Below, piece after piece: positions 910-20,364 of a stretch of DNA of 33,734 nt (within the stretch, counting starts at the first letter, position 1; every line of letters starts with the position of its first letter). The translations under genes and the position numbers were made by a program. Source of the DNA: Bacillota bacterium. Lineage in GTDB: Bacteria > Bacillota > Dethiobacteria > DTU022. The stretch spans positions 1 through 33,734 of the forward strand of contig VGTO01000013.1 in NCBI GenBank assembly GCA_016874655.1, in the 5' to 3' direction. Below the pieces are notes generated by a model that saw only the letters and a list, made by a program, of their open reading frames with translations, was not told where the DNA came from and did not search any database.

Positions 910-912
910 CTC

Positions 913-1272: not shown

Positions 1273-1285
1273 AGGTGTCCCTCTT

Positions 1286-2806
1286 ATGGATGAACTTGTT
1301 CAAAGATTACCCTTTCTTTGTGTGATCGGCACCCTGGTTGCTTCTTTCTGTATGCCGGTTTTGGCCAGGTGGAAAAAAGAGCTCTGTGCACCTCTGGCCA
1401 CCCTGGTTAGCGGCTCAGTTTTTATAGTTTCTATCTTCATTGCCCACTATGTGATGCAGGGAAACATTATCCGTTACGGGGTTTCTGGCTGGGCCCCTCC
1501 CTGGGGCATTGAAATTGTAGTCGACCCGATTACAAGCCTGATGATTATGTTGCTTTCAGGAATCTGTTTTTTGATCTGCATCTATAGTTTTGCTGCAATC
1601 AAACACGAACTCGAACGAATTGTTACCGGGTGGTATTATGCCGCATATTTACTTTGTATGGCCGGGATGATCGGCCTGGTGATTTCCAACGATGTGTTTA
1701 ATATGTATGTTTTTATCGAAGTGACCGGGATCAGCGCTGTCGCCCTGGTGGCAAGCAAAGGTACCCGTGAGGCTACCGAAGCGGCTCTCAAGTATCTGCT
1801 TCTGGCAACTATCGGTTCAGGGTTTATTCTCTTTGGCATCGGTTTTATCTACATGATTACCGGCAACTTAAATATTACTTTCATTGCCCAGGAACTGGAC
1901 CCGGTAAAAGGTAATTATCCATTTTTAATTTGGACAGCCATCAGTTTCCTGGTAGTCGGTTTTGGCGTAAAGTCAGCGTTTTTCCCGCTGCACCTCTGGC
2001 TACCTGATGCCCACTCTTCGGCACCTTCTCCATCGAGTGCTGTTCTTTCTGCTTTGGTCGTTAAAGTTTATATCATTGCCTTCATGAAGATTCTCTTCAT
2101 TGCCTTTGGTCTGGAAATATTCCATGAAACCTTCATTCGCCACCTGATCCTGGTGCTGGCAGTAATTGCCATGCTGGCAGGTTCATTTTTTGCTTTTGTG
2201 CAAATTGAACTTAAAAGGCGCCTGGCTTATTCCACTGTTGCCCAGATCGGTTATATCTATCTCGGCATTGGACTGGGCACCCCCTGGGGTCTGGCTGCCG
2301 GGTTACTGCACATTCTGGTTCATGCTTTTATGAAGACCTGTCTATTTCTCTGCGCCGGCGCCATCTATTATCAAACCGGCCGCAAGAAGGTCAATGATTT
2401 TTCCGGGATGGGCTATAAAATGCCCATTACAATGGGTGCTTTTACGATAGCAGCATTCTCGATGGTCGGCATTCCGCTGTTCGGCGGTTTTATCAGTAAG
2501 TATGGTCTGGCGCTGGGCAGCCTTGAAGCTGACCTGCCGATATTAATTTTGGTGATCATTTTAAGTGGTTTGCTTAATGCAACTTATTATTTTCCGATTA
2601 TTGGCCAGGCTTATTTTACCCAGGAAGACCACGCCGTGCACCACACTGATGGCGGACATTCTGAACCGAAAAAATTTCAGCGCGATCAAATTCCCCTCAG
2701 CATGCTGGTGCCAATTATCATCCTTGCATTGGGGATCATTTACCTTGGCATTTTCCCTGGCACAGTCCTTAATTTTATTAACCAGACAGTAGCCATGCTG
2801 CTTTAG
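1286..2806 (+). CDS. mrpD: Mrp/Mnh antiporter subunit D (NuoN/NuoM-type ion-translocating subunit)
   Basis: This 506-residue polytopic protein has the Proton_antipo_M core. The conserved charged residues of ion-translocating subunits are visible: Glu145 in NMYVFIEVTGIS, Lys229 in GFGVKSAFFPLHLWLPDAHS and Lys260 in LSALVVKVY. A broken-helix segment around KRRLAYSTVAQIGY follows. Its place directly after mrpC mirrors canonical mrp operons. A His-rich cytoplasmic loop (DHAVHHTDGGHSEP) lies near residue 450. Initiation is at ATG 1286 behind an AGAGGTG site. Confidence 0.92.
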   Translation: MDELVQRLPFLCVIGTLVASFCMPVLARWKKELCAPLATLVSGSVFIVSIFIAHYVMQGNIIRYGVSGWAPPWGIEIVVDPITSLMIMLLSGICFLICIYSFAAIKHELERIVTGWYYAAYLLCMAGMIGLVISNDVFNMYVFIEVTGISAVALVASKGTREATEAALKYLLLATIGSGFILFGIGFIYMITGNLNITFIAQELDPVKGNYPFLIWTAISFLVVGFGVKSAFFPLHLWLPDAHSSAPSPSSAVLSALVVKVYIIAFMKILFIAFGLEIFHETFIRHLILVLAVIAMLAGSFFAFVQIELKRRLAYSTVAQIGYIYLGIGLGTPWGLAAGLLHILVHAFMKTCLFLCAGAIYYQTGRKKVNDFSGMGYKMPITMGAFTIAAFSMVGIPLFGGFISKYGLALGSLEADLPILILVIILSGLLNATYYFPIIGQAYFTQEDHAVHHTDGGHSEPKKFQRDQIPLSMLVPIIILALGIIYLGIFPGTVLNFINQTVAMLL

Positions 2807-2837
2807 ATTTGTAAGACGATGCTCGGAGGTGGATTAA

Positions 2838-3353
2838 TTGTTTTCCAGAATTAGAAGTGACCTTTTTGGCGCCTTGTTTATCTTTTCGCTGTTGCTGGCT
2901 TTCTGGCTGCTAATCTCAGCCAGTATCCACTGGCAGCATATCTTGGTAGGTGTAATATTTTGTTTCATTCTTACCATATTCTGGAGCAATCTGACTATTG
3001 CTGCCGATATTAAAACCGGGTTTAATCTAAAGCAGCTTTTTATGTTGTTAAAATATTTCTTTTTCCTCGGTATTGATATCGTAATCGCTAACATAGGTGT
3101 GGCCTTAATTGTGCTTAATCCTAAAAAGCCTATTTCTCCCGGTATTGTAATCATGCGCTGTGATCTTGAACGAAGCTTGTCACGGGTTTTATATGTGAAC
3201 TCGATTACCCTGACTCCCGGCACAATTACGGTTGAACTGGAAGGTAACCTGTTGATCGTTCATGCCTTAACCGAAGATGTTGCTCATGGGGTGGAGGATT
3301 GGGCCCTGTATCGCAGACTGCAGGAAGTGGAGGGTATTTATAATAATGGTTGA
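2838..3353 (+). CDS. mrpE: Mrp/Mnh antiporter subunit E
   Basis: This 171-residue MnhE-family protein has N-terminal membrane helices (about residues 10-50 and 65-95) followed by a soluble tail. The family motif NSITLTPGT is at residues 121-129. MrpE is a peripheral subunit of Na+/H+ antiporters and equals MbhA in archaeal Mbh. The start is TTG 2838 with a strong GGAGGTGG site at 2825-2832. The 3' end overlaps the start of mrpF by 8 bp, which suggests translational coupling. Confidence 0.9.
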   Translation: MFSRIRSDLFGALFIFSLLLAFWLLISASIHWQHILVGVIFCFILTIFWSNLTIAADIKTGFNLKQLFMLLKYFFFLGIDIVIANIGVALIVLNPKKPISPGIVIMRCDLERSLSRVLYVNSITLTPGTITVELEGNLLIVHALTEDVAHGVEDWALYRRLQEVEGIYNNG

Positions 3354-3612
3354 AATAGCACTTTATGCTTTAGTTTTCGGGCTAATCATCATTTCCCTAC
3401 TCTCAATCGCCCGTGCCTATAGTGGGCCAACGGTTTTGGATCGGGTAGTGGCGATGAACATGATTACCACTAATGTTGTATTGACGATCTTGATTTTTGC
3501 TTATCTTGACAATAGCTTCTACTACGTTGATGTCGCGTTTGTTTTTGTACTTGGCGCTTTTATCGGAACGCTTTGTATCCTTAAACTATTGCGCGAAGGC
3601 CATATTCTGTAA
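3346..3612 (+). CDS. mrpF: Mrp/Mnh antiporter subunit F
   Basis: This 88-residue protein has three helices and carries the MnhF signature RAYSGPTVLDRVVAMN (residues 23-38), with the conserved Asp32. The frame is open further upstream, but the family N-terminus and a purine-rich GTGGAGGG site at 3328-3335 favour the ATG at 3346. That start overlaps the last codons of mrpE. Three-helix MrpF packs with MrpG and MrpE in the antiporter and corresponds to MbhB. Length is typical. Confidence 0.9.
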   Translation: MVEIALYALVFGLIIISLLSIARAYSGPTVLDRVVAMNMITTNVVLTILIFAYLDNSFYYVDVAFVFVLGAFIGTLCILKLLREGHIL

Positions 3613-3651
3613 CCGCCTGGCGCAATAAAAAAAGATTTGAGGTGTTTTAAT

Positions 3652-4053
3652 ATGATTTTTGTACAGCAAGTGATTCCCTATGTTGCGCTCTTTTTCATCT
3701 TTAGTGGATTCTTTTTTCTGTTGGTCGGTGTTGTGGGTCTGCTCCGTCTTCCTGATGTCTATACCCGGATGCATGCTATGGGCAAATGCGATACCTTAGG
3801 TACGGGTATGGTGCTAATCGGGCTGATGCTGCTTTTCGCGGATATAACCAATGTTACTAAGTTGCTTTTAATCGCTGCGATGATTGCCACAATTAATCCC
3901 GTGGTCACTCACCTGATTGCCAAAACAGCTTATAACAGGGGCACGCCGATGGCTGAAGGCAGCTTCTTAATTAATGACTACGTAGCCTCTCAACGGCGCC
4001 GGAGAAGACAGCCTCTGGTTACAGAACCAGAGAAAGGCGGAGATATCTGTTGA
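3652..4053 (+). CDS. mrpG: Mrp/Mnh antiporter subunit G
   Basis: This 133-residue MnhG/PhaG family protein has the family block LRLPDVYTRMHAMGKCDTLG at residues 31-50, between helices 1 and 2, and a third helix after it. A basic tail (SQRRRRRQP) follows. The ATG at 3652 is chosen over an in-frame upstream TTG at 3637, because GAGGTG (3639-3644) is correctly spaced for the ATG and the TTG lies inside the ribosome site. The stop overlaps the TTG start of the next gene. Confidence 0.9.
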   Translation: MIFVQQVIPYVALFFIFSGFFFLLVGVVGLLRLPDVYTRMHAMGKCDTLGTGMVLIGLMLLFADITNVTKLLLIAAMIATINPVVTHLIAKTAYNRGTPMAEGSFLINDYVASQRRRRRQPLVTEPEKGGDIC

Positions 4054-4292
4054 CCACTGATATGTTATTATTTTTGCTGCTGATAATCTTAATTGTAAGC
4101 ACTTTTTCGATCTTTATCTTCAAGGATCTGCTTTATATCGTGATCATCTTTGGAGCTTTCAGTATGGTAATGTCCCTGATCTGGCAGCAGCTTAATTCGC
4201 CTGACCTGGCCATTACTGAAGCGGCTGTAGGTATTGGAATGACAGTATTAATGGTAACTGTGGTTACCAAGGTTGGGAGGCGTCCCCAGTGA
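4050..4292 (+). CDS. DUF4040/MbhD-like small membrane subunit (part of MrpA C-terminus)
   Basis: This 80-residue, three-helix protein contains PDLAITEAAVGIGM (residues 51-64), the signature of the DUF4040/MbhD domain. In bacterial MrpA this domain is fused near the C-terminus; in archaeal Mbh/Mrp complexes it is the separate subunit MbhD. Glu57 in this motif lies in the ion pathway region of the homologues. The TTG start at 4050 overlaps the mrpG stop (TTGA), so the two are coupled. The 3' end likewise overlaps the following gene by 4 bp. Confidence 0.85.
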   Translation: MTTDMLLFLLLIILIVSTFSIFIFKDLLYIVIIFGAFSMVMSLIWQQLNSPDLAITEAAVGIGMTVLMVTVVTKVGRRPQ

Positions 4293-4618
4293 AAAACCTG
4301 CCCCGTGTTTTATTTTACGTCATGTCAATTGTTCTGGTTGGGCTGATCTCTTTTATGCTGATGCTGGCAGTAACCGAAATGCCTATCTACGGCAATTTAG
4401 ATAACCCGACAAATAACTATGTTTATGAGCGTTATGTGTATGAGGGGGTTCATGAAAGCGGCGGTTTGAATATGGTGGGCAATATTTTGATCGATTACCG
4501 GGGCTACGATACACTGCTTGAGTCAACGGTACTATTTACAACCGTTATATCAATTATGCTGGTCTGGGGCACAAGCAGCACCGGCCGTAAAGAGAAAGAA
4601 CATGAAACTCACCATTAA
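4289..4618 (+). CDS. MbhE-like subunit (extreme C-terminal domain of MrpA)
   Basis: This 109-residue protein has one helix near the N-terminus (about 7-29), an extracytoplasmic loop, and a second helix after IDYRGYDTLLESTVLF (residues 68-83). That motif is the MrpA C-terminal/MbhE signature (RGFDT-x-xE). The start is GTG 4289, overlapping the preceding stop by 4 bp. With the gene before it, it supplies in split form the parts that a canonical MrpA carries fused to its antiporter domain. Confidence 0.82.
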   Translation: MKNLPRVLFYVMSIVLVGLISFMLMLAVTEMPIYGNLDNPTNNYVYERYVYEGVHESGGLNMVGNILIDYRGYDTLLESTVLFTTVISIMLVWGTSSTGRKEKEHETHH

Positions 4619-4657
4619 CACCTGTTCTGTGACCTGACGGGAAAGGAAGATCTTCTA

Positions 4658-6139
4658 ATGGATTACATCTTATATTTGCCTCTCTTCATGATTGTCTTTC
4701 CCCTGGTTGGAGCGCTGTTTACCGGACTGGCTAAAGAAGAAAATGACCGGGCCCGCAACATAATGGCTGTAGCAGTCAGCCTGATCAGCGCCGCAGCTAT
4801 GGTCCTGGTCCTGATCCATTATGTTAATTATGGGGAATGGTCAATTCTGCTGCACCAGGTTGCTCCCGGCCTTGAAATAAAATTGCGCGTTGATCCCCTG
4901 GCCGCCCTCTTCGGCGGCACAGCTGCCATCCTCTGGTTTTTCTCTGTTGTCTACTCTACCGGCTACATGGCTCACGAACACGCCCGTCGCCGTTACTTTA
5001 TTTTTTACCTGCTCTCACTTAGTATGACCATGGGTGTAGCACTCGCGGCAAACCTTTTAACACTTTACCTCTTTTATGAATTTCTAACCCTCTTCACTTA
5101 CCCCCTGGTTATCCATGAAGAAAACGACGAAGCCAAAAAAGCAGGTATTCGCTATCTGATCTACAGTTTTTTTGGAGCCGGTCTGATCCTGATTGGTTTG
5201 ATTATTACTTACGGTAATGCGGGAACACTTGAGTTTGCCCGTGGCGGCATCATTAACCCCGCGACCGGATCACCATTCCTGCTACAGCTGGCCTTCCTCT
5301 GCCTTATCTTCGGATTTGGTGTAAAAGCAGCGGTCATGCCACTGCATGCCTGGCTCCCTTCAGCCATGGCAGCCCCGACTCCGGTCAGCGCTCTTTTACA
5401 CGCTGTTGCCGTTGTTAAATCAGGGGTTTTTGGCATTTTACGTAGCATGTACTCGGTTTTCGGGATTACAGCCCTGATCAGTTTAAATTTAGGTTATTTT
5501 GTGGCCGCACTGGTATCGGTAACCATCCTGACGGCCTCGATTATTGCCATGCAACAGGATGTGCTGAAGCGGCGTCTCGCTTATTCCACGATCAGCCAGC
5601 TTGGTTATATTACCTTGGGCGCCGGCCTTTTCAATGTAATCGGGCTAACCGGTGGCCTGCTGCATATTATTAATCATGCTTTACTGAAGATTACCCTCTT
5701 TTTCTGTGCCGGAGCGATCATAACCGTTACCGGTAAGAAAAAAATCAGTGAGCTTAACGGCCTCGGCAAGCGAATGCCGCTGACCATGATCGCTTTTACG
5801 ATTGCAGCCATCGGCATGATCGGCATCCCACCGGTTAACGGCTTCATCTCAAAGTGGTACCTGATCCAGGGCAGTTTAGAAAGCGGCGCCTGGATCTTTA
5901 TTGTGGTGTTGATCGGCAGCGCCCTTCTAAATGCAGCTTACTTTTTGCCGATTATCATCGCCGCCTTCTTTAAGGAAGGCAACTTCGAGCCGGTCAAGGG
6001 TCCTGAAGCTCCGCTATCGATGTTGCTGCCAATCTTAATTTTAGTTGCCGGTTGTCTTGTTGTTGGTACTAACCTGCAATTGACTGTACCATACCTACAG
6101 AACATAGCCGAATACCTTTTCTACGCAGGAGGTAATTAA
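4658..6139 (+). CDS. NuoL/MrpA-type antiporter subunit, 493 residues
   Basis: This polytopic Proton_antipo_M protein has the ion-translocation residues Glu141 (LFYEFLTLFTYPL), Lys223 (GFGVKAAVMPLHAWLPSAMA) and Lys254 (LLHAVAVVKSG). The LHAVAVVKSG form is closer to the MrpA N-terminal domain and NuoL than to MrpD. It may therefore stand in for the missing MrpA antiporter module. It lacks the long C-terminal extension of MrpA, whose domains are the two preceding small genes. It starts at ATG 4658 behind GGAAAGGAAG, and the next gene follows after 2 nt. Confidence 0.85.
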   Translation: MDYILYLPLFMIVFPLVGALFTGLAKEENDRARNIMAVAVSLISAAAMVLVLIHYVNYGEWSILLHQVAPGLEIKLRVDPLAALFGGTAAILWFFSVVYSTGYMAHEHARRRYFIFYLLSLSMTMGVALAANLLTLYLFYEFLTLFTYPLVIHEENDEAKKAGIRYLIYSFFGAGLILIGLIITYGNAGTLEFARGGIINPATGSPFLLQLAFLCLIFGFGVKAAVMPLHAWLPSAMAAPTPVSALLHAVAVVKSGVFGILRSMYSVFGITALISLNLGYFVAALVSVTILTASIIAMQQDVLKRRLAYSTISQLGYITLGAGLFNVIGLTGGLLHIINHALLKITLFFCAGAIITVTGKKKISELNGLGKRMPLTMIAFTIAAIGMIGIPPVNGFISKWYLIQGSLESGAWIFIVVLIGSALLNAAYFLPIIIAAFFKEGNFEPVKGPEAPLSMLLPILILVAGCLVVGTNLQLTVPYLQNIAEYLFYAGGN

Positions 6140-6141
6140 TT

Positions 6142-8139
6142 ATGGCCCGGGAAATTTTTTCTGGCTTGCCTTTAATTGCTGTTCTCATTCCACTTGTCGC
6201 TTTCGCCATGATCATCATCGCCGGAAAGTTACCCTGGTGGCGTAACACCTGGTCGCTAATCGGCAGCGCTGGCACCCTTGTCGCCGTGGCCTTAATGTAC
6301 CCCCTAATCGCAGCCGGTAAAATAATAACTTATGAACTGCCCATGATTATCACTCCGCTAAACCTCACCTTTCGGGTTGACGGGTTCAGCTTTTTTATGG
6401 CCCTGATTGCCTCATTCATTTGGCTGATGGCAACCATCTTTGCGATTGAATACATGAACCATGAGAAAAACCAGGGGCGCTTTTTTATATTTTTCATGCT
6501 AACCCTGGCCGGAACAATTGGTGTTCCCCTGGCCGGTGACCTGCTCTCGCTGCTCCTCTTTTTTGAGTTGATGTCTCTCGCTTCTTACGTACTGGTCGTT
6601 CACACTCAAACCAGGGAAGCATACAGCGCCGGCGATATATACCTTTACTTAGGAGTCTTCGGAGGCATGTGCCTCTTAACGGCAATGGGGTTGATCTATT
6701 TCAGCACCGGTTCCCTGGCTATTATCTCGCTCGCCGGTTTAGCCCAGAGTGGTAATGCTATCATGCAGGTTGCCATGGTCCTGTTGATCTTAGGTTTCGG
6801 CATTAAAGCCGGTATGGTTCCGCTACATATCTGGTTGCCTAAAGCGCACCCAGTAGCCCCGGCGCCGGCCAGTGCTCTACTTTCCGGGATTATGATCAAA
6901 ACCGGAGCCTACGGCATCATCAGGACGCTCAGCTTGATTTACGCTCCGGAGCAAGGTTCTGCTGCGCACAGCACCGCAGCAGATGTTGCCGGTGCCCTCT
7001 GGGCTCAACTTGCCGGAAGCGGCTACGTTATCATCTGGTTCGGCATTGTCACCATGTTTTTTGGAGTCTGTATGGCTTTAATTCAGGATAACATCAAAAA
7101 AATGCTGGCCTGCAGCAGTATCAGTCAGATCGGTTACATTATTATGGGCGCCGGGGTTGCCGCCTACCTCGGTTACGAAGGAGCAATGGGCCTGGCCGGA
7201 TCCGCTTATCATATTCTTAATCACGCCTTCTTTAAATCTACACTCTTTCTCGCCGCTGGAGCAATTGCCTACCTGACTGGCGAACTTGATATGACTAAAC
7301 TGGGCGGGCTGCGGCATAAACTGCCTTTCACGTCAATTGTTGTCCTGATTGCCTCCCTCGGTATCATTGGTATACCGCTTTTTAATGGTTACGCCAGTAA
7401 AACGCTGCTGCACCATGCCATTGTTGAAGCCTATGAACACCACCACTGGATATCGCTCTCGATCGCCGAAAAAATCTTCACCATTACCAGTGCCGGTACA
7501 GTCTGTTACTTTCTTAAATTCCTCTACTTTGTTTTCTGGCGCCCGGCGCCTGATAACCTTGACCAGGTGAAAAGAGAACCGCTACTGATGAAAATAAGTA
7601 TGGGTTTTTTAGCGGTAGTGATGGTTTTTATCGGCTTCTCGCCCAACTTTACGCTTAAAAAGATGGTTGGGCCGGTCTTAAATTCCTTTAACCTTGATGA
7701 GCACGGGGTGGAATACCTGCTTAAAATAAACTTTTGGAAAGCCGGCGATCTACTGGCTGTCGCTCTTGCCCTGGGGCTCGGTATCGTCTTCTTCTATCTT
7801 GTCCAGCGTTTCAACCTGTACCGGTTGCAAGTACCCTACTGGCTGGGCGCTGATTTTCTGGGCGCTTTCTTGAGCAGGGCAGCAATTCTTCTCTGGTTTA
7901 TAATCACCTTGCCCTTTATTGCCCTCCAGAATTTAAGCGGTAAAATATCAGGGAGGTTTTATCGCAAAGGATTTTTATTCCTGCAAAACGTCGATTACCG
8001 ACCCGGGCAATCTGCGGTATTCAGAACAGTGAATATCAGCAACATCGACTTCAGTATGATCCTGGTTCTGGTCTCCCTAAGCATCATCCTTACTGTTGTT
8101 TTCTACATAAGATTTGGACTGAGGATTTTCGGTCTTTAA
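6142..8139 (+). CDS. Second NuoL/MrpD-type antiporter subunit with C-terminal extension, 665 residues
   Basis: The first ~500 residues form a Proton_antipo_M domain with Glu142 (LLFFELMSLASYV), Lys222 (GFGIKAGMVPLHIWLPKAH) and Lys253 (GIMIKTGAYG). About 150 extra residues follow: a further helix near 530-550, an amphipathic linker, and a last helix at about 640-660. The layout resembles HyfB or long NuoL-like subunits of energy-converting complexes. It starts at ATG 6142, directly after GCAGGAGG in the end of the previous gene, and is the last gene of the operon. It is the third complete antiporter-type subunit here. Confidence 0.83.
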   Translation: MAREIFSGLPLIAVLIPLVAFAMIIIAGKLPWWRNTWSLIGSAGTLVAVALMYPLIAAGKIITYELPMIITPLNLTFRVDGFSFFMALIASFIWLMATIFAIEYMNHEKNQGRFFIFFMLTLAGTIGVPLAGDLLSLLLFFELMSLASYVLVVHTQTREAYSAGDIYLYLGVFGGMCLLTAMGLIYFSTGSLAIISLAGLAQSGNAIMQVAMVLLILGFGIKAGMVPLHIWLPKAHPVAPAPASALLSGIMIKTGAYGIIRTLSLIYAPEQGSAAHSTAADVAGALWAQLAGSGYVIIWFGIVTMFFGVCMALIQDNIKKMLACSSISQIGYIIMGAGVAAYLGYEGAMGLAGSAYHILNHAFFKSTLFLAAGAIAYLTGELDMTKLGGLRHKLPFTSIVVLIASLGIIGIPLFNGYASKTLLHHAIVEAYEHHHWISLSIAEKIFTITSAGTVCYFLKFLYFVFWRPAPDNLDQVKREPLLMKISMGFLAVVMVFIGFSPNFTLKKMVGPVLNSFNLDEHGVEYLLKINFWKAGDLLAVALALGLGIVFFYLVQRFNLYRLQVPYWLGADFLGAFLSRAAILLWFIITLPFIALQNLSGKISGRFYRKGFLFLQNVDYRPGQSAVFRTVNISNIDFSMILVLVSLSIILTVVFYIRFGLRIFGL

Positions 8140-8293: not shown

Positions 8294-8322
8294 AGGGGCT
8301 GCCGGATATACCGGCAGCCCCT
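8294..8322. terminator. Strong hairpin terminator between convergent operons
   Basis: AGGGGCTGCCGG (8294-8305) and CCGGCAGCCCCT (8311-8322) form a perfect 12-bp stem with a 5-nt ATATA loop. The plus-strand side is followed by AATTTATTAC, so it best terminates the mrp-like operon. It lies 40 nt past the rnfD stop and may also serve the minus-strand fdh-rnfCD operon, although no U-run follows in that direction. The preceding 150 nt (8140-8293) are AT-rich and show no convincing gene. Confidence 0.85.
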
Positions 8323-8362: not shown

Positions 8363-9343
8363 TTACTTCTTGTCAGCCATCGGTACCGGCACAGCTTTCT
8401 TAATATTACCAAACTGCGGCCGGGCAGTGGCTCTTTCAATCATCGGTACAAAGGCATTCATGATTAGGATTGAGTAAGCAACCCCTTCTGTAATCAGGAA
8501 TCCGACCCGGAAAACGACGATCAGGATACCGATACAGACTCCGAAGATGATCTTGCCTTTATCTGTAAACGGACTGCTAACCCAATCAGTAGCCATGAAG
8601 AAGGCCCCAATCATCATTCCACCGGTAACCAGGTGGAGTATTGGGTTTTGCCCGGCAATCAGGGTCAGCACAATGACCGTTCCCAGGATTGACACAGGAA
8701 TTCTCCAACCGATATGCCCCTTATAAAACAGGTAAGCAGCGCCGATTAGCAGTGCTAAGGGCGATACTTCGGAGAGAGCTCCGGCCGGGAACGCTGTAAA
8801 GAGCTGCAATGCAGAAGGCATCGGCATCCCCGCGCGCATCATAGCCAACGGTGTAGCCTGAGTAATGGTATCCAGTGAGCCTAAGTGAATCCCTAGTGGT
8901 TGAAACCACTGGTTTATATAGGCATAAAGAGGAGCTAATATAACCAGCGCTACGCGTCCGAATAAAGCCGGGTTAAAACGGTTCCAACCCAGGCCACCTG
9001 AAAGCTCCTTGGCGATTCCGATTGCAATGAAAGTTCCCAGCGCCACTTTATACCATGGTGTGGTTGCTGAAAAGAGCATAGCCACAAACAGACCGGTTAC
9101 CAAAGCGCTCCAGTCATATAGAGTTGGTTTTTTGTGCATCAGTTTACGGAATAAAAGCTCTGTCAGCACTGCAGTAACCAGGGCAACCCCAATAGTTAAA
9201 GCTGCGTAATACTGAAAAAAGTATATGGATACCAGCGAGATAGGTATTAAAGCAATAAAAACGTCGCGCATGGCACTTGATACATCTACCTCGCTCTTCA
9301 GGTGAGGAGCCGATGATACAATGTATTTTTGAGTATCACTCAC
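8363..9343 (-). CDS. rnfD: RnfD, membrane flavoprotein subunit of the Rnf complex
   Basis: This 326-residue polytopic NqrB/RnfD-family protein has helices spread along its whole length. RnfD carries covalent FMN, attached by ApbE to Thr in a Dxx(S/T)GAT motif on the extracytoplasmic side. Here the motif reads D158-T-I-T-Q-A-T164, so the Gly is replaced by Gln but the acceptor Thr164 is kept. The GTG start at 9343 has an AAGGAGG site upstream. It follows rnfC by 30 nt and ends the operon. The usual next genes rnfG, rnfE, rnfA and rnfB are absent; a terminator hairpin and convergent genes follow instead. Confidence 0.88.
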   Translation of the reverse strand: MSDTQKYIVSSAPHLKSEVDVSSAMRDVFIALIPISLVSIYFFQYYAALTIGVALVTAVLTELLFRKLMHKKPTLYDWSALVTGLFVAMLFSATTPWYKVALGTFIAIGIAKELSGGLGWNRFNPALFGRVALVILAPLYAYINQWFQPLGIHLGSLDTITQATPLAMMRAGMPMPSALQLFTAFPAGALSEVSPLALLIGAAYLFYKGHIGWRIPVSILGTVIVLTLIAGQNPILHLVTGGMMIGAFFMATDWVSSPFTDKGKIIFGVCIGILIVVFRVGFLITEGVAYSILIMNAFVPMIERATARPQFGNIKKAVPVPMADKK

Positions 9344-9373
9344 TACTTATAACCTCCTTTTCCCCTTATTTGA

Positions 9374-10681
9374 TCACTTGCTCATCAGGTCACGGATCAA
9401 AGGTTTGGTCTGCTGAACAAAACGAACAATCGGACGCTTGGATGGGCATACATAAGCGCAAATACCGCACTCAATGCAATCCAGAGTGTTCCACTCAGCA
9501 GCCTCACTGACCATGCCTACTTCGCAGTAGATACTGATTTGATTCGGATAGAGCAAAACCGGGCAATGTTCAACACATTTGCAACAGCGGACACAATCAC
9601 GGTATTCGGTATCCTCAAGGGCCATTTCCGGTGGCAATACAACAACCCCGGTTGTGCCCTTGGTTACCGGTGAGTCCAGGCTCAGCTGCGCTTTTCCGGT
9701 CATCGGTCCACCAATAATAACTTTCGCCGGCTCCTCAATAATACCCCCACATTCATCAATTAGATGCGCAAGCGGGGTGCCTATTTTTACCAGCAGGTTC
9801 TGCGGATCCTTGATATTCTGACCGGTAACAGCAACTACCCTTTCAATCAGCGGTTTGTTGTATCTGACCGCTTCATAAATAGCTACCGCTGTACCCACGT
9901 TTTGAATCATTGTGCCCACATCCATCGGCAGGCCTCCCGAAGGAACCTCCCGATCAAGTGCTGCTTTTACCAGGTGCTTTTCCGAACCCTGGGGATACTT
10001 GGTAGGCATCCTTAATAATACTATACGGGGATCATCATTCTTATCACGAATAGCCTCGATAGCATCATCTTTATTACCTTCGATGCAAATATAAGCCTTA
10101 TCAACCTCAAGCACTTTCATTAAGAGCTTTGTTCCCTGCAGCAGTTCTTCCGGTTTCTCAAGCATCAGCCGGTGGTCGCAGGTAAGGTACGGCTCACACT
10201 CACACCCGTTCAACAGTAAAGCATCGATCTTTTTATCCGGTGGTGGGCTTAACTTAACCGAAGTTGGAAAAGTTGCGCCGCCCATACCAACAACACCAGC
10301 TTCCTTGACCGCTTGAAGGATCTCTTCTTTTGTTGCTTTTTCCGGATCGTTGTTAGCAAGCTCCAATTTATCCTGGTTCTTGTCAACTGCAATGACAATG
10401 CAATCGATCGCCTGACCTGGAATTCGAGGTTCAATGGCGGTAACCGTACCGGAAAGGCTGGCGTGGACCGGAGCGCTTACGAACTTGTCGCTGGCCCCGA
10501 TTTTTTGGCCTGCTTTTACTTTATCGCCAACTTTCACCAGGGGCTCATTGGGAGCGCCAAGATGTTGTAAAAGCGGGATAACAATCTCCGCTGGCAGTGA
10601 AGCCTCTTTTATCGGCTTATGCTCACTAAAGCTCTTATAGTGGGGAACGTTTAACCCACCAAGAAACTGTTTTACTTCCAC
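9374..10681 (-). CDS. rnfC: RnfC, NADH-binding iron-sulfur subunit of the Rnf complex
   Basis: This 435-residue protein has a normal RnfC length. It has an N-terminal barrel-sandwich region, the nucleotide/FMN-binding stretch GVVGMGGATFP (129-139), and two C-terminal [4Fe-4S] motifs: Cys363/366/369/373 (CVRCCKCVEHC) and Cys402/405/408/412 (CIECGICAYVC). An extra Cys367 lies inside the first motif. RnfC oxidises or reduces NADH at the cytoplasmic face. The start is GTG 10681 after GGGGGGTG. It sits 18 nt after the formate dehydrogenase beta subunit, in the slot where a cytochrome b gamma gene is expected. Confidence 0.92.
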   Translation of the reverse strand: MEVKQFLGGLNVPHYKSFSEHKPIKEASLPAEIVIPLLQHLGAPNEPLVKVGDKVKAGQKIGASDKFVSAPVHASLSGTVTAIEPRIPGQAIDCIVIAVDKNQDKLELANNDPEKATKEEILQAVKEAGVVGMGGATFPTSVKLSPPPDKKIDALLLNGCECEPYLTCDHRLMLEKPEELLQGTKLLMKVLEVDKAYICIEGNKDDAIEAIRDKNDDPRIVLLRMPTKYPQGSEKHLVKAALDREVPSGGLPMDVGTMIQNVGTAVAIYEAVRYNKPLIERVVAVTGQNIKDPQNLLVKIGTPLAHLIDECGGIIEEPAKVIIGGPMTGKAQLSLDSPVTKGTTGVVVLPPEMALEDTEYRDCVRCCKCVEHCPVLLYPNQISIYCEVGMVSEAAEWNTLDCIECGICAYVCPSKRPIVRFVQQTKPLIRDLMSK

Positions 10682-10699
10682 TTATTTTCACCCCCCGGT

Positions 10700-11485
10700 T
10701 TATTTGGATTCGCCTTTGGCTTCCTCGAATTTTTTGCTCTGGCTGCGGTTTGACCAGATGCCCAGAGCCACAGCTACTACTACAATTACGCGTAACGGCG
10801 CATAAATAGCATTGAAGAAACGGGTTTGCACCGGCACTTGCGGATCCGCCGGAAAACCGTATTTCTCAGGCTTATCCGCCAACACATAAAGCATCGCTGT
10901 GCCACCGACCTGGTCCAGGCCGTAAATATTGGCGTCAACTTTGCCTTTGGCTTTAAGCTGGCTCACTCTTTTTTCTGCCTTGGCAATCAGCTCTTTACTG
11001 TCACCATAGGTAATTGAACCAGTCGTGCAGGCTGTTGCACAAGCCGGCTTAAGACCGTTCTGCAGCCGATCCAGGCAAAAAGTACACTTCCGGGCTTTGT
11101 TCGCCAGGCGGTCAAAGCCGATAACCTGAAACGGACAGGCTGCCGCACAGTAGTTACAGCCAATACACTTAACTTCATCAACCTTTACCGTATCGAATTC
11201 GGTACGATAAAGAGCACCGGCCGGGCAAGCCAGAATACAAGCCGCATCGCTGCAGTGCATACAACCAGATTTTACCATTAGCCAGTCTACGCCGCCGTTT
11301 TCATTATCAAACTCACGGAACTTAATCCGCATCCAGGTGGTAGACGATAAACGCGGCGGGTTTTCGTAAGTTCCGGTAAAGGTTGTCTCTTCAGCCGGAA
11401 GCTGGTTCCACTGCTTGCATGCAGCCTGGCAACCACGGCAACCCATACACTTGGAGGCATCTATTAAACAGATGTTCTTAGCCAT
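10700..11485 (-). CDS. fdnH: Formate dehydrogenase iron-sulfur (beta) subunit with membrane anchor
   Basis: This 261-residue electron-transfer protein has four [4Fe-4S] motifs: Cys13/16/19/23, Cys75/78/83/87, Cys107/110/113/117 and Cys134/137/149/153. One C-terminal hydrophobic helix (about 231-246) is followed by a charged tail, matching FdnH-type subunits. It has no signal peptide of its own, so export would be by hitchhiking on the twin-arginine alpha subunit. The ATG at 11485 directly abuts the fdnG stop codon, with GGAGGG upstream inside fdnG. In FdnGHI complexes the anchor contacts a cytochrome b subunit; none is encoded here. Confidence 0.88.
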   Translation of the reverse strand: MAKNICLIDASKCMGCRGCQAACKQWNQLPAEETTFTGTYENPPRLSSTTWMRIKFREFDNENGGVDWLMVKSGCMHCSDAACILACPAGALYRTEFDTVKVDEVKCIGCNYCAAACPFQVIGFDRLANKARKCTFCLDRLQNGLKPACATACTTGSITYGDSKELIAKAEKRVSQLKAKGKVDANIYGLDQVGGTAMLYVLADKPEKYGFPADPQVPVQTRFFNAIYAPLRVIVVVAVALGIWSNRSQSKKFEEAKGESK

Positions 11486-14400
11486 TTATTCCGCCCTCCT
11501 TACGTTGCAAAGGAATGCCTTATATTCCGGTATAGTCGTGTTGGGGTCACCGACTGAAGGAGTCAGATCATTAGCACTGGCTCCGGTGCTCATACCCATA
11601 AAGCCCCAGTGCATCGGCATTCCGACTACATGCTTCAGCTCACCATTGATGAGCATCGGCTTGATCCGCTTTGTAACACAAGCTTTAACCTTGATATTGT
11701 CCTGCTCGCCATCCTTGTAAAGTCGTTTGCTTTCAATCAGGATGTAGTCGCCGTTATTGATACCAAGTTCAGCAGCATGTTCTTCACTGATTTCAGCAAA
11801 CATCTCCGGCATCATCTCTATCAGCCAAGGTTGGTTACGGGTAACCGAACCAGACTGGTAATGCTCAACCAGACGGTAGCTGGTGGCAATGTGCGGGTAT
11901 CTGGCCCGCTCCTCGTCAGTTTCTACTGTATGATCTTCGTAGAAACGCTGACTGGCCGGATTAAAGGTGGCCTTAGGATAAAGCAGGTTATCCACCGGAC
12001 TGTCTGCCGGTTCATAATGGGTTGGGAATGGACCGTCACGCAGTCCGCCTACACCCTGGTAGCCGATGGAAAAGAGCCTTCCGACACCTTCGGGGAGCAT
12101 AATGAAGGGGTTGGCGGTTGAGTACTCAAAGTCCCAGGCACCCGGAATATCGGGAACATCATTGCCGACCCATTTCTGCTGGGCTTCGTCCCACCAGATT
12201 ACCGGTGCTGCCGGGTTCCAGGGCTTGCCTGCCAGGTCACAAGAAGCGCGACTATAGACAATACGCCGGTTAAGCGGCCAGGCAAAAGACCAGTCCTTGT
12301 TAAATCCAAGACCCTCTTTTTCCTTAATCCGCTTCTTGGTAGCAGGGTTATTAAGGTTGTTGTAGTATCCGCTATAGAGCCAGTTACCACAGGCTGTTGA
12401 ACCATCAGCCTGCAGACCGACAAAGTTGGTCAATAGGGAACCATCAGCCACCTTGTAACCATTAAGTTCCATGCTAACCTTGACGATATCAATCTGGCCG
12501 TCAGGTCCGTCATAGTCCCAATGCATCTTGGTAATCTGCTCGGCCACTTCTCCGCCTTCTGCTTCATAAAGAGCTCTTAAACGCTTAAACATCTCGTTCA
12601 CAATCCAGAGATCCGACATGGCATCACCAGGGGGATTCTGAGCTTTCCACATCCACTGAATCCAGCGACCGCTGTTTGCTTTATTGCCTTCCCTTTCGTA
12701 ACTGAAAGCAGCCGGCAGAATGAAAACTTCGGTCTCGATCTCAGCCGGGTTCATCCCCGGGCCTTTCCAGAAAGCAGCGGTTTCATTTTCAACAACATCA
12801 ACGGAAACCAGCCATTTCAGATTAGCTTGATAATGGAGCTTGGCCCGCGAACTTGAACCGCCAACCAGCGGGTTGTCGGCCACGCAGATCATTCCTTCAA
12901 CTTCACCGTCGCGCATATACTTGTACGCAGGAATATGGGAATGATCAAGGCCGTCGAGTTTCGGAAACCACTGGTAGCCAAATTCATTTTCCGGTGTGGC
13001 ATTATCGCCGTAGAATGCCTTTAGCAGGCTGACGATATACTTAGGCCTGTTGCTCCACCAGTTCTTCTGCGGTGTTGTTGCCGTTAGGTATTCTACCAGC
13101 GTGGCATGGCTACCCTGCTGAGGTGTGGGATTATAGCCTGGAATGATATGGTATAGCTGGGCCATATCAGTGGCACCCTGAACGTTTGACTGTCCACGCT
13201 GGGCGTTGACTCCGCCGCCAGCGATCCCCATGTTACCAAGCAACAGCTGGATTATAGCAATAGCACGGGTATTTTGAGCGCCGTGGGTAAACTGGGTTAT
13301 GCCCATGGCATAGAGGATATTACCTGCTTTGCCGGCCTGGCCGGTACTGCTGAAGAGTTCGTATGATTCTTTTAATACATCTTCAGGAGCGCCGGTAATT
13401 TTGCTGATATTAGCGATTGTGTATTTGCTGTAATGCTTCTTCAGCAGTTGGAATGAGCAGTTGGGGCTCTCCAGAGTAGGATCTTTCAAGATATTGCCAT
13501 CAGCATCGGCCTGGTACTGCCAGTCTGCCATATTATACTTGGTTGCGCTGCGGACCGGATCCGGCTCTGCCCCGGTAAAGAGGCCGTTAACTTCATCAAA
13601 ACTGAAGTTTTCGTTGATCAGATAAGATGCGTTGGTGTAATTGTCAACGTATTCCTTGTGATAGCGTTCGTTCTCAAGGATGTAGTTGATGAGGCCGCCC
13701 AGGTAAGCAATATTGGTTCCGGGGCGAATCGGTACATAAAGATCGGACACTGCTGCCGTACGGCATAAACGGGGGTCGACACAGATCAGTTTTGCACCCT
13801 TTGTCTCCCTTGCCTTTTCAATCCATTTCATCGAAATCGGGTGGTTTTCAGCGGTATTACCGCCGATGGCCATGATTACATCACTGTGCTGATAATCGTT
13901 CCAGTGATTTGTCATGACACCCCTGCCAAACGAGGCGCTGAGACCAGCGACCGTTGTAGAGTGTCAGAGGCGGGCGCAGTGATCAAGATTGATCACACCC
14001 ATAGCGCGGCACATCTTGTGGAAGAGATAGTTCTCCTCACCGGTGCACCAGGCGCTGCCCAGCCAGTTGATCGCATTGGTCCGGTTAACAGTTACCTGCC
14101 TGCCACCAACATCAACTGTTTTGACCAGGGTGCGATCACGGGTATCCTTAATCCGCTTTGCAATCTCATCGAGAGCCCAGTTCCAGTCTTTTTCCTCATA
14201 ATCACTGGCACCCGGAGCGCGGTAGAGCACCTTGGTCATCCGCTTCGGGTTGGGAATTGGCTTGCCTTTTTCTTCGAAAATGTAAGAAGCATTAAAAATC
14301 GAACTGCCTTTGCTACAAAGGCTTCCTTCGTTAATCGGATGACCGGGGTCACCCTCGGCATTGACAACAATACCGTCTTGGACGCTGCAGATAATACCAC

Positions 14401-14566
14401 AGCCAACGCCGCAGTAAGTACAGATAGTTGGAACTTCTTTCGTGTACTTAATGCGTAGAGGTTCGACAGGAGCTGCGATTGCTTTACGCAATCCCACACC
14501 GGTCAGGGTTGCTGCGGCAGCGGTCGCACCAGAAAGCTTTAAGAAGCTGCGCCGCGTTAGTTCCAT
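11486..14566 (-). CDS. fdnG: Selenocysteine formate dehydrogenase alpha subunit, Tat-exported
   Basis: This is one gene of 1026 residues that reads through an in-frame UGA at 13964-13966 as Sec201. The context is CARL-U-HSTTVAGLSASFGRG, matching FdnG-type molybdenum/tungsten-bis-MGD formate dehydrogenases. A SECIS hairpin follows. The N-terminus is a twin-arginine signal (TRRSFLKLSG) with a hydrophobic Ala-rich stretch, so the catalytic subunit should act outside the cytoplasm. A [4Fe-4S] motif follows (CTYCGVGC ... LCSKG). The ATG at 14566 is preferred to a GTG at 14578, because AGGAGGT (14577-14583) overlaps the GTG but is well placed for the ATG. The C-terminal part contains the molybdopterin dinucleotide-binding domain (HVVGMPMHWGF region). 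The reaction is formate to CO2 plus two electrons, or the reverse. Confidence 0.93.
13929..13966 (-). promoter_or_regulatory. SECIS element and Sec UGA codon in fdnG
   Basis: After the UGA (13966-13964) the mRNA folds as CGCUG-GUCU-CAGCG: a 5-bp apical stem (13949-13945 with 13940-13936) and a GGUCU loop like that of E. coli fdhF. A lower stem pairs AACGG (13955-13951) with UCGUU (13933-13929), including one G-U, across an asymmetric internal loop. The spacing from UGA to loop fits bacterial SelB-binding SECIS elements. Confidence 0.88.
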
Positions 14567-14581
14567 AAGGACATCCACCTC

Positions 14582-15496
14582 CTAGTCTTCTCTTTCACTT
14601 AAATCAGAGTCGTTAAACCACTTTAAGCCGGAACCCGGCTTATAGCCTTCCTTGCCGGCCAGAAGATCATTATTCAGGGTGGCAAGGTTGTGGATGGCAA
14701 GAACTAGATCACCATCCGCGTTAAGCTGCCTTAAATCAAAAATCTTGCAATAGCAAAAGCAGGATTGACAGTGATTTACCCGGCAAAGATCTTGGCCTTC
14801 AATGGTAAAGTAGCCTAGTTCTTCCCTCTCTTCATTATTGCAATACGGACACTTGACTCGGGTGTGTACCCAGCGGGTACCGCAAAGCCAACACTCCAGC
14901 TGCTTAGCTCCGTCTTCGGTGCGCAGCATGCCATAATGCGGCTTTTCACCACATAAAGGACAATCCCCCCCTTCGTACAGGTCTGTCCGTAGGACCTCAG
15001 CGATAGATTCAAGCTGTCTTCTATAAATAGAAGATAAGACTATTGAAAAAAGGAACGTGGCCATATCATTTTCTATGGCTGCTTCCTCAATCAATAACTG
15101 ACGGAACTGATCAATCTCTTCAAGACTGATAATCGATTCTTTGTTAGTAAAATATGAATCGGTTTTATCATTTACTTCATTAAAAACCAGTTTTAAAGCG
15201 GGATTTTTTTTCGCAGTTTCTTTACAAACAGTTTTAAACAGATCAACAAAGAGTTCAGTCTCCAGATCCGGCCTGAATCGCAAACTCTGATCTTTTTTCA
15301 TCAAATCAGTTGCTTCTTCCACCTGAGATATGGGTAGTTCAGCCGGAACAAATGCCCCTGAATTTTTTGCATAATACTGATCTAAAATAATATAGATGGA
15401 TTCTACAAAATCTGCGCCGCCGGCAAAATCTTCATATAGCTTTTTACAGCGCTCTATCTCCTGTTCATACCCAACCAGCCAGAGGCTATCCAACAA
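14582..15496 (-). CDS. fdhE: FdhE-like formate dehydrogenase accessory protein
   Basis: This 304-residue protein has a helical N-terminal half and a rubredoxin-like C-terminal half rich in CxxC pairs: Cys179/182, 202/205, 216/219, then Cys238, 243, 246, 248 and 250. FdhE binds the catalytic subunit of respiratory, Tat-exported formate dehydrogenases and is needed for their maturation before export. It is the first gene of the operon; its stop lies 15 nt before the fdnG ATG and overlaps the fdnG ribosome site. The start is TTG 15496, or the TTG just upstream, behind GAGGAG. Confidence 0.85.
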   Translation of the reverse strand: MLDSLWLVGYEQEIERCKKLYEDFAGGADFVESIYIILDQYYAKNSGAFVPAELPISQVEEATDLMKKDQSLRFRPDLETELFVDLFKTVCKETAKKNPALKLVFNEVNDKTDSYFTNKESIISLEEIDQFRQLLIEEAAIENDMATFLFSIVLSSIYRRQLESIAEVLRTDLYEGGDCPLCGEKPHYGMLRTEDGAKQLECWLCGTRWVHTRVKCPYCNNEEREELGYFTIEGQDLCRVNHCQSCFCYCKIFDLRQLNADGDLVLAIHNLATLNNDLLAGKEGYKPGSGLKWFNDSDLSERED

Positions 15497-17916: not shown

Positions 17917-20364
17917 GTGAAGCAGGTGGAAAGAAAGAGCGGCGGCGGATCAAGGAAGAAAAGAGTCAGCGAAGGACCGGCGGCCGGCGGCGGAGTTTAC
18001 CGGCGCGGCGAAGCGGTTAAGCCCCAGGGCAGCAAACCGGTTGGCAAAGCCGACGGCTATGCCGAGCGCAAGCATGGTAGCAGTGGTCCGATCAGCAGCC
18101 AGCAGGATTTAGGACAATACGGTTCCGGTGGTTCCGGTTCCGGCCAGCCACCTTTTAAACAACGGCAAAGACCGACAGGTGGCGGGGGAATGTCTCCCAA
18201 AAAACTGCTGTTGTTAATAATCGTCATCTTTATCGGTTACCTGCTCTTAAGAAGTTGTTCCGGAATGATTGCCGAACCTGAACTACCTGCTTCGCAGGGT
18301 TTCACGGCGGATACACCCAGTGCTTCAGTAATCAGTGGTGACCCGGCCAATAATAATATCAGCCCGATGACCGGCATTACCGGCCCACGTACCAGGCGCA
18401 CAGAAATTAATGGCGGCGGCCAGGATGTTTTTACAATTATGATTTACATGTGCGGCACCGATCTTGAATCGCAGTATGGGATGGGCACCGCAGACCTTAA
18501 TGAAATGCTGCATGCCACGATCAGTGATCAGGTAAATATAATTGTTGAAACCGGAGGCACTGCAAGCTGGCGAAACAGCGTCGTTAAAAACAGCACCAAT
18601 CAACGCTTCCAGGTGACTTCTTCCGGCTTGCGATTGCTGCAGGATAATTTAGGCAAGCGACCGATGACCGACCCACGAACACTCGAAGATTTTATCACTT
18701 ATTCTGCTGTCAATTTTCCGGCCAACCGCTATGCCTTAATCTTTTGGGATCATGGGGGCGGATCATTAAGCGGTTTCGGCTATGATCAGCTTTTCCCGAA
18801 CAGCGGCTCGATGTCCATTAGCCAGATTCACACTGCCCTGGAGGGGGCCGGGGTTAAGTTTGATTTTGTCGGTTTTGACGCCTGCCTGATGGCCACCCTG
18901 GAAACAGCTTACATGCTTAACTACCACGCTGATTACATGATCGCTTCAGAGGAGACGGAACCGGGCATCGGCTGGTATTATACCAACTGGATCAGCAAGC
19001 TATCAGCTAATACTTCTATGGGTACAGTTGAAATCGGCAAGTTGATCATTGATGATTTTATTGCCACCTGCCGCAAAACAGTACCCCGTGAGATAACCAC
19101 CCTTTCGATCATCGACTTAGTAGTTTTAAATAATGAAGTAGACGGGGCCTTTAAAGAGTTTGCCACAGCAGTGGATGAGCAGCTAGACAGCAATTACCGC
19201 ATTGTATCCAACGCCCGCGGGGATTCACGTGAATTTAACCGCTCTCGTTTAGACCAGGTTGACCTGATTGATCTGGCTCAAAATATCGGCTCACCTGAGG
19301 CCACAAACCTGGTCAGCGCTCTACAACAGGCGATCAGGTATAACCGGACTTCAGACAATATCTCCAGGGCCCATGGCGTTTCGATTTACTTCCCCTACGA
19401 TGAGCTGCGTAATATCTCCTCGATGGTCAATATCTATGATCAGATCGGAATGGGTGATGAATACACCTCGCTGGTTAGAAAATTTGCCAACATGGTTGTG
19501 GGCGGTCAGATTACCACCAGTGGCAGCAGCAACCCGTTGAGTTCTCTGCTCGGTGCTTCCGGAGACGGCGGTTCACCTGGTTTATCAGCCGATCTCTGGT
19601 CGCTGGCCTGGAATACTTTTTTTGCCGATGCTGATTTTGGCAGCGTGATTGGCGCTGTTTCCGGGGAGCAGACCAATTGGATTGACCCAAACCTGATTCA
19701 GTCCAACGCCGATTACTACCGGGATCATTACTTTGATGCCGGCAGCTTACAGCTGACCAGGAAGGGCAGCAGCCAGGTTCTAAAGCTAACCGATGAGCAG
19801 TGGGACCTGATCCAGAAAATTGAGCTAAACGTTTTCTTTGACGATGGTGCCGGCTTTATCGACCTGGGGCTGGATAATGTCTATGAGTTTGACGGCGACG
19901 GCGACCTGATCGTTGAATTTGACGGCACCTGGCTGGCCCTGGACCGGCAGATTGTAGCCTACTACGTGGATAGCATTGAGGAAGCGGGCGACTACTGGTC
20001 GATAACCGGGCGTATACCGGCCATGCTGAACGGTGAGCTAGTGGATATTATCGTGCTGTTTAATGACGAATACCCTTACGGAACAGTAGCCGGGGCAAGA
20101 ATTAACTACGGGGCGTTAACCGATACAGTAGCCAAAGGGTTAATCTCGATTGAAAGCGGCGATGTGATCGATTTTCTCTGCGATTACTACACCTACGATC
20201 AGGAATATGATAGCAGCTTTTACTTAGGCGACCAGATGGTTGTTAACGGAGAGCTGGAGGTCAGCAATGTGGATGTGGGCAGCGCCAGGTGCATGGTGAC
20301 CTACCGGTTGACCGACATTTATAACAATACTTACTGGACCCCGGCCCTGATTTACAATGAGTAA
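17917..20364 (+). CDS. Membrane-anchored clostripain-family (C11) cysteine peptidase
   Basis: The protein is about 815 residues. Residues 1-92 are low-complexity, rich in Gly, Ser, Lys and Arg, and probably cytoplasmic. One transmembrane helix (about 96-111, LLLLIIVIFIGYLL) follows, and the rest would be extracytoplasmic. The C11 peptidase domain starts near 171 (VFTIMIYMCGTDLES). The catalytic pair is His279 in FWDHGGG and Cys323 in GFDACLM, with the family SEETEPG segment near 345-351. The ~300-residue C-terminal half is Asp-rich (FDGDGDLIVEFDG) and not assigned; it may bind Ca2+ or the substrate. The start is GTG 17917, or GTG 17926 with AGGTGA upstream. It stands alone between two promoters. 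The substrate is unknown. Confidence 0.82.
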   Translation: MKQVERKSGGGSRKKRVSEGPAAGGGVYRRGEAVKPQGSKPVGKADGYAERKHGSSGPISSQQDLGQYGSGGSGSGQPPFKQRQRPTGGGGMSPKKLLLLIIVIFIGYLLLRSCSGMIAEPELPASQGFTADTPSASVISGDPANNNISPMTGITGPRTRRTEINGGGQDVFTIMIYMCGTDLESQYGMGTADLNEMLHATISDQVNIIVETGGTASWRNSVVKNSTNQRFQVTSSGLRLLQDNLGKRPMTDPRTLEDFITYSAVNFPANRYALIFWDHGGGSLSGFGYDQLFPNSGSMSISQIHTALEGAGVKFDFVGFDACLMATLETAYMLNYHADYMIASEETEPGIGWYYTNWISKLSANTSMGTVEIGKLIIDDFIATCRKTVPREITTLSIIDLVVLNNEVDGAFKEFATAVDEQLDSNYRIVSNARGDSREFNRSRLDQVDLIDLAQNIGSPEATNLVSALQQAIRYNRTSDNISRAHGVSIYFPYDELRNISSMVNIYDQIGMGDEYTSLVRKFANMVVGGQITTSGSSNPLSSLLGASGDGGSPGLSADLWSLAWNTFFADADFGSVIGAVSGEQTNWIDPNLIQSNADYYRDHYFDAGSLQLTRKGSSQVLKLTDEQWDLIQKIELNVFFDDGAGFIDLGLDNVYEFDGDGDLIVEFDGTWLALDRQIVAYYVDSIEEAGDYWSITGRIPAMLNGELVDIIVLFNDEYPYGTVAGARINYGALTDTVAKGLISIESGDVIDFLCDYYTYDQEYDSSFYLGDQMVVNGELEVSNVDVGSARCMVTYRLTDIYNNTYWTPALIYNE

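Follow-up and report, generated by a model that had tools for sequence, protein, structure and literature searches.

Introduction

The FdhAB formate dehydrogenase (FDH) of Desulfovibrio vulgaris is a soluble periplasmic enzyme linked to cytochrome c. In FdnGHI of Escherichia coli (PDB 1KQF), an exported alpha subunit containing selenocysteine (Sec) is associated with an iron–sulfur (Fe-S) beta subunit, which has a C-terminal membrane helix, and with a cytochrome b gamma subunit. The Rnf complex, encoded by rnfCDGEAB (7ZC6, 9ERI), forms a U-shaped path, in which electrons go from ferredoxin to RnfB and RnfA/E, reach the flavin of RnfG on the outside, and come back by way of RnfD, with its flavin mononucleotide (FMN) followed by its riboflavin, and of the Fe-S clusters and FMN in RnfC, to end on NAD (PMC11889175, PMC12174285). 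Here we analyze a stretch of 33,734 nucleotides (the window; contig VGTO01000013.1, C13 in our numbering) from the draft genome of a Bacillota bacterium, in which parts of the last two systems are found in a single operon, fdhE-fdnG-fdnH-rnfC-rnfD.

The locus shares with FdnGHI the Sec-containing alpha subunit, exported by twin-arginine translocation (Tat), and the Fe-S beta subunit with its C-terminal membrane helix, but rnfC and rnfD stand in the place of the gamma subunit. With Rnf it has RnfC and RnfD in common, their cofactor residues being conserved, but it lacks RnfG, E, A and B, its RnfC falls in a separate lineage, and the partner would be formate and not ferredoxin. Unlike the enzyme of D. 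vulgaris, the FDH of the operon is membrane-anchored and linked to RnfCD. We consider it quite probable, from the genes and their arrangement, that FdnGH and a half Rnf (RnfC-RnfD), both encoded in the operon, make up a dedicated, quinone-independent NADH:CO2/formate oxidoreductase of the membrane.

The adjacency of FDH and rnfCD has been noted once before, unexplained. In the metagenome-assembled genome (MAG) unFirm_1, rnfC and rnfD lie beside a formate dehydrogenase and were called a truncated Rnf, and both RnfC and FDH were detected in the metaproteome (Frank et al. 2016, PMC5080403). That likeness, compared by description only, concerns one MAG, for which no mechanism, conservation survey or other partners were given; conservation, the separate lineage and the swapped partners are added here. 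For 'Ca. Syntrophonatronum acetioxidans' and for 'Ca. Contubernalis alkaliaceticus', published accounts describe an exported FDH and Rnf separately and unlinked; the FDH of 'Ca. Contubernalis alkaliaceticus' (alpha and beta genes HUE98_01270/01275) has its beta subunit anchored in the membrane. No description of a half Rnf acting as an adaptor was found in the open-access literature searched (subscription papers not covered). The recurrence of the pairing in dozens of related, apparently quinone-free bacteria, and with other exported enzymes such as hydrogenase, suggests a direct connection between enzymes on the outside and NADH that has so far gone unreported.

Conserved Linkage and a Separate RnfC Lineage

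The source genome is a 2.13-Mb draft (152 contigs, 96.5% complete, 3.4% contamination). Besides the rnfC of the operon, referred to here as type 2, it has a canonical rnfC-D-G-E on contig C103 that runs off the contig end; the full rnfCDGEAB order is seen in a congener (locus L104). The type-2 RnfC (RnfC2) and the canonical one of the same genome (RnfC1) are 48% identical. For the survey, 98 genomes of the class were scanned with RnfC, most of them giving one to three copies, and about 58 RnfC loci were fetched and mapped. The neighbourhood labels come from BLAST comparison with the window's own proteins, so that distant partners may be missed, and the trees were built with a quick method.

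FdnG/FdnH-like genes lie on the same strand within 6.5 kb in 40 of the 44 type-2 rnfC loci, versus none of the 18 canonical ones, which bears out the adjacency that an earlier note on this DNA had proposed to look for in other genomes. Two of the four loci without them are at contig edges; the other two are L047 and L066. The full rnfGEAB set occurs in none of the 44 type-2 loci, and only L066 has an RnfG-like neighbour. At type-2 loci rnfD comes after rnfC, while the canonical rnfC sits in rnfCDGEAB. Type 2 is carried by about 38 of the 98 class genomes, and the linkage is not merely one inherited arrangement, because the gene order varies (fdnGH-rnfCD, rnfCD-fdnGH, rnfCD-fdnH). Such conserved linkage rules out a chance adjacency of FDH and rnfCD.

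Type-2 RnfC is a lineage apart from canonical RnfC. In a tree of 63 RnfC proteins from the class set, those of canonical operons form one group with 100% support in the Shimodaira–Hasegawa-like approximate likelihood ratio test (SH-aLRT), and in the phylum-set tree 36 canonical RnfC plus one contig-edge row again form one 100% group. The phylum survey with RnfC2 gave mostly canonical Rnf and added just two genomes with type 2, which both belong to family f13. The fdnGH-rnfCD neighbourhood is conserved not only across the class but also in a second one of the phylum; one near-complete genome of another class (G148, 3 contigs) holds FDH-rnfCD, PhsB-rnfCD and two canonical Rnf operons together. 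Similar FDH-RnfCD genes, with RnfC 77–80% identical to that of the window, were also seen on MAG contigs labelled Thioalkalivibrio and Dehalococcoidia (L012, L015), for which mis-binning or transfer would account.

These data allow weighing the explanation that RnfC2 and RnfD2 serve as spare or isoform subunits for the canonical RnfG/E/A/B, the FDH being a mere neighbour or a loose feeder. The canonical genes elsewhere in the genome and the 48% identity of the two RnfC agree with it, and so do the RnfA/E matches over the cut-off in 90 of the 98 class genomes (among the few genomes without them, canonical RnfC is cut by the contig end in G090 and G085, and G035 is incomplete). However, the canonical operons have their own rnfC and rnfD, the two types of RnfC split cleanly with context, and the links to exported oxidoreductases, the swapped partners described below and the varied gene order are unexpected for spare parts; moreover, unFirm_1 was reported with only rnfC and rnfD (PMC5080403). 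We think that this explanation is unlikely. The earlier note had set it against a hybrid complex, to be doubted if a complete rnf elsewhere came with a separate fdnI-like gene and no conservation of the adjacency. A search of the genome gave the canonical genes on C103, no fdnI-like gene, and the adjacency is conserved. The hybrid complex is the model favoured by the canonical rnfC and rnfD of their own, the separate RnfC lineage, the conserved fdnGH-rnfCD and the lack of an fdnI-like gene, the complex itself being a prediction.

RnfC and RnfD of the Operon

All genes of the operon are on the minus strand. The type-2 rnfC (9374-10681) encodes the NADH/FMN-binding subunit with two [4Fe-4S] motifs (TIGR01945, 527 bits, cut-off 246). 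The protein matches 7zc6_C with an E value of 6.3e-128 and is without a membrane helix. Its cluster cysteines 363/366/369/373 and 402/405/408/412 are all present in the 45 type-2 proteins compared (45/45). The type-2 rnfD (8363-9343) encodes a membrane flavoprotein (TIGR01946, 260.7 bits, cut-off 207; E 7.5e-70 against 9eri_D). By alignment with Acetobacterium woodii, Thr164 (codon at 8852-8854, motif TQATPL) is the predicted covalent FMN site and corresponds to T156 of that protein, while N124 and D253 align with the riboflavin residues N123 and D249. Conservation among type-2 RnfD is 43/44 for the FMN threonine and 44/44 for both the asparagine and the aspartate. The RnfD–RnfC electron path retains the flavin-binding and Fe-S residues, and would presumably be loaded with these cofactors; two ApbE flavin transferases are encoded in the source genome.

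In the outer loop that precedes the FMN threonine, the spacing is 40 residues in 37 of 44 type-2 RnfD, versus 31 in 10 of 15 canonical ones. This longer and uniform segment could be the place where an outside partner docks.

Formate Dehydrogenase Genes

The fdnG gene (11486-14578) encodes the FDH alpha subunit of 1,030 amino acids with a Tat signal, a Mo/W-bis(pyranopterin guanine dinucleotide) site and Sec at codon 205. In lists of open reading frames (ORFs) it appears split by the UGA of that codon (13964-13966, motif RL-U-HST), and it is one protein if TGA is read through as Sec. The codon coincides with the selenocysteine position of solved formate dehydrogenases and is conserved in homologues, TGA ending the homologous N-terminal ORFs at the same site in 24 of 25. 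A selenocysteine insertion sequence (SECIS)-like element extends from the UGA (13911-13969; Rfam SECIS_3, 32.5 bits, E 8.6e-5, below the gathering score). Because of the conserved TGA and this element we take fdnG as one selenoprotein gene; a pseudogene broken by a stop is ruled out on the same grounds. The C-terminal ORF alone scores 921.6 bits with TIGR01553. The nearest solved structure is the alpha subunit of D. vulgaris FdhAB (6SDR/9QM0; 9qm0_A, E 1.7e-268), with 1kqf_A at 6e-244. That the alpha subunit is Tat-exported, as read at first from the sequence, agrees with the TAT signal PF10518 found on FdnG.

The beta subunit gene, fdnH (10700-11485), codes for a protein with a ferredoxin domain of four clusters and a single membrane helix at its C-terminus. 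TIGR01582 (FDH-beta) is its best model with 220.8 bits, yet under the strict cut-off of that model, and the nearest PDB chain is 1kqf_B (E 2.4e-62). A hydropathy scan places the transmembrane helix at residues 226-244 (10754-10810, hydropathy 2.14), and the basic tail that follows is expected to be cytoplasmic. The operon begins with a gene for an fdhE-like FDH accessory protein (14582-15496), which scores 62.7 bits with TIGR01562, below the NCBIfam cut-off of 187.65, while the Pfam FdhE_central domain is over its cut-off.

No Cytochrome b or Menaquinone Pathway Detected

The earlier note had pointed out that the gamma subunit and four Rnf genes are missing from the locus. RnfG, E, A and B are indeed not found there, and the observation on the gamma subunit extends beyond it: no cytochrome b of family PF01292 (FdnI-like) was detected in the locus or in the genome by family search of the 96.5%-complete draft, NrfD/PsrC-type partners not being searched. 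Menaquinone synthesis was followed by two marker families, likewise through family searches. MqnA/D (PF02621) is absent from the source draft genome and gives a strong match in only 1 of the 98 class genomes; MenD is over its curated cut-off in none of the class genomes, versus 7 of 14 controls. No menaquinone pathway was detected, and these organisms appear to be quinone-free. With no PF01292 cytochrome b, no MqnA/D and no MenD, a quinone-linked FdnGHI is therefore unlikely here.

A different proposal is that the FDH electrons go to another membrane partner, such as an NrfD-type protein or an unknown cytochrome, or to a soluble carrier, RnfCD being unrelated. The interaction of FDH with RnfCD is predicted from the genes, and other families of membrane partners were not searched exhaustively, which leaves some room for such a route. 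However, neither a PF01292 protein nor a menaquinone pathway was found in the draft genome, and the strong conserved linkage and the swapping of partners speak against RnfCD being unrelated, so that we find this proposal very hard to credit.

Proposed Electron Route

In the NADH:CO2/formate oxidoreductase that we propose, the RnfD-RnfC limb would have FdnGH, instead of RnfB-A-E-G, as its electron partner on the outside. FdnH would pass electrons to the FMN of RnfD, or receive them from it, and the whole route would be formate/CO2 ↔ FdnG ↔ FdnH clusters ↔ FMN (RnfD) ↔ riboflavin (RnfD) ↔ Fe-S/FMN (RnfC) ↔ NADH. This half-Rnf route matches the published U-shaped path, of which RnfC-RnfD is the down-going limb. 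Only one membrane crossing would be left, and the electron transfer itself would therefore be electrogenic, with two charges per electron pair. Oxidation of NADH with reduction of CO2 outside would spend membrane potential, and oxidation of formate would build it. The direction is most likely reversible, running from NADH to formate during syntrophic growth. Complex formation, cofactor loading, the electron route, electrogenicity and direction are what we infer from sequence.

The textbook potentials are about -320 mV for NAD and about -430 mV for CO2/formate, and we estimate that NADH-driven formate formation outside would be downhill at a membrane potential near 180 mV. How syntrophic bacteria dispose of the electrons of NADH (about -320 mV) as formate or H2, which lie at lower potential, is a long-standing question, for which the usual answers are quinone loops, confurcating enzymes or the whole Rnf. 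If our proposal is right, a half Rnf with an exported FDH or hydrogenase would do so by membrane potential alone, quinone-free, and Rnf would consist of two separable modules, with predicted subunit contacts that are directly testable.

Several points weigh against this proposal. To our knowledge, RnfD accepts electrons from RnfG only, and a transfer from FdnH to RnfD would be unprecedented. The absence results come from a draft genome of 152 contigs. A formate transporter and the neighbourhood of a cytosolic FDH that looks NAD-linked are present in the genome, and the outside enzyme is thus not the sole formate route. Finally, in the nearest congener (G042, 93% complete) the sole RnfC match is of the canonical type.

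A variant of the mechanism would have RnfD translocate Na+ as well, NADH:formate transfer then being coupled to Na+ movement plus charge transfer. An ion path through RnfD/NqrB has been proposed for the Rnf of Clostridium tetanomorphum and for the Na+-translocating NADH:quinone oxidoreductase (NQR) of Vibrio cholerae (PMC12174285), soda-lake-type MAG collections are the source of the nearest named relatives, and in the closest relatives an Mrp-type cluster lies convergent next door. In the A. woodii Rnf, in contrast, Na+ transport has been assigned to RnfA/E and only electron transfer to RnfD (PMC11889175). RnfA/E are absent from the FDH-Rnf locus, and most other type-2 loci show no such convergent Mrp neighbour. 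We regard Na+ translocation by RnfD as highly improbable.

Other Partners of Type-2 RnfCD

The picture is broader than the earlier note had it: type-2 RnfCD also pairs with exported hydrogenases and with PhsA-like enzymes. At L064 and L086, rnfCD is found with a Tat-exported FdnH/HybA-like ferredoxin, the Tat-exported small subunit of a [NiFe(Se)] hydrogenase, and the large subunit of that hydrogenase. In having both hydrogenase subunits, small and large, together with a HybA/FdnH-like Fe-S protein, this set resembles the exported [NiFe(Se)] hydrogenases of the Hydrogenase-2 and Hys types, but here rnfCD adjoins and no cytochrome b/NrfD-like gene was recognised in the fetched stretch (unlabelled ORFs not all scanned). 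At L014/L048, L052, L082 and L140, the companions are a PhsA-like molybdoenzyme, a ferredoxin subunit and a TorD-like chaperone. Partners have been exchanged within the type-2 lineage, because the hydrogenase and PhsA-like types are scattered in the RnfC tree. This exchange, with RnfC-RnfD constant, looks like the mark of a common adaptor function.

We are inclined to think, with somewhat less confidence than for the FDH complex, that RnfC-RnfD would act on its own, independently of quinones, as a membrane adaptor ('half Rnf') linking exported FDH, [NiFe(Se)] hydrogenase and PhsA-like molybdoenzymes directly and electrogenically to cytoplasmic NADH, replacing cytochrome b/NrfD subunits in quinone-free bacteria. 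The membrane potential would then drive NADH-dependent release of formate or H2 outside.

Other neighbourhoods were seen as well. At L047 and L049, type-2 rnfCD is near a YeeE/YedE-type sulfur transporter, at L047 also with a multihaem-cytochrome-like protein and apparent rhodanese and cytochrome c maturation genes; these neighbours are possibly a further half-Rnf partner. L066 (genome G086) is an odd partial Rnf, with RnfG-like, RnfC and RnfD proteins and without E, A and B; its RnfD has Ser in place of the FMN Thr, and a protein like MenA-type prenyltransferases (read by eye) is nearby. As for the canonical operons, many genomes, both from the class and from the phylum, have rnfCDGEAB followed by same-strand small ORFs and Mrp-type antiporter genes (L054, L056, L059, L094, L095, L096, L104, L138, L141, L162), suggesting an Rnf-Mrp functional unit.

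Genomic Surroundings

The ORF and profile searches agree with the gene order, strand, coordinates and short gaps first read from the sequence: the five genes form one tight operon with intergenic gaps of about 0–30 nt. Its proposed termination after rnfD fits a terminator-like hairpin at 8294-8322 (12-bp stem, 10 GC pairs; no strand assigned), a single GC-rich structure that closes both this operon and the convergent Mrp operon. The latter, a Mrp-type Na+/H+ antiporter cluster at 514-8139, comprises MnhB, C, D, E, F, G, MbhD, MbhE and two further MrpD-like proteins. The closest relatives retain the layout, and so does a contig labelled Dehalococcoidia, whose Mrp proteins are just 36–40% identical. 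The Mrp operon was rejected as part of the complex, since it is convergent, lies behind the terminator and recurs only in the nearest relatives and on that one contig.

The closest named relatives of the window are MAGs labelled Bacillota and Syntrophomonadaceae, and the source genome encodes an acetyl-CoA synthase. Upstream of the FDH-Rnf operon, at 17917-20364, lies a gene for a clostripain-family (C11) protease.

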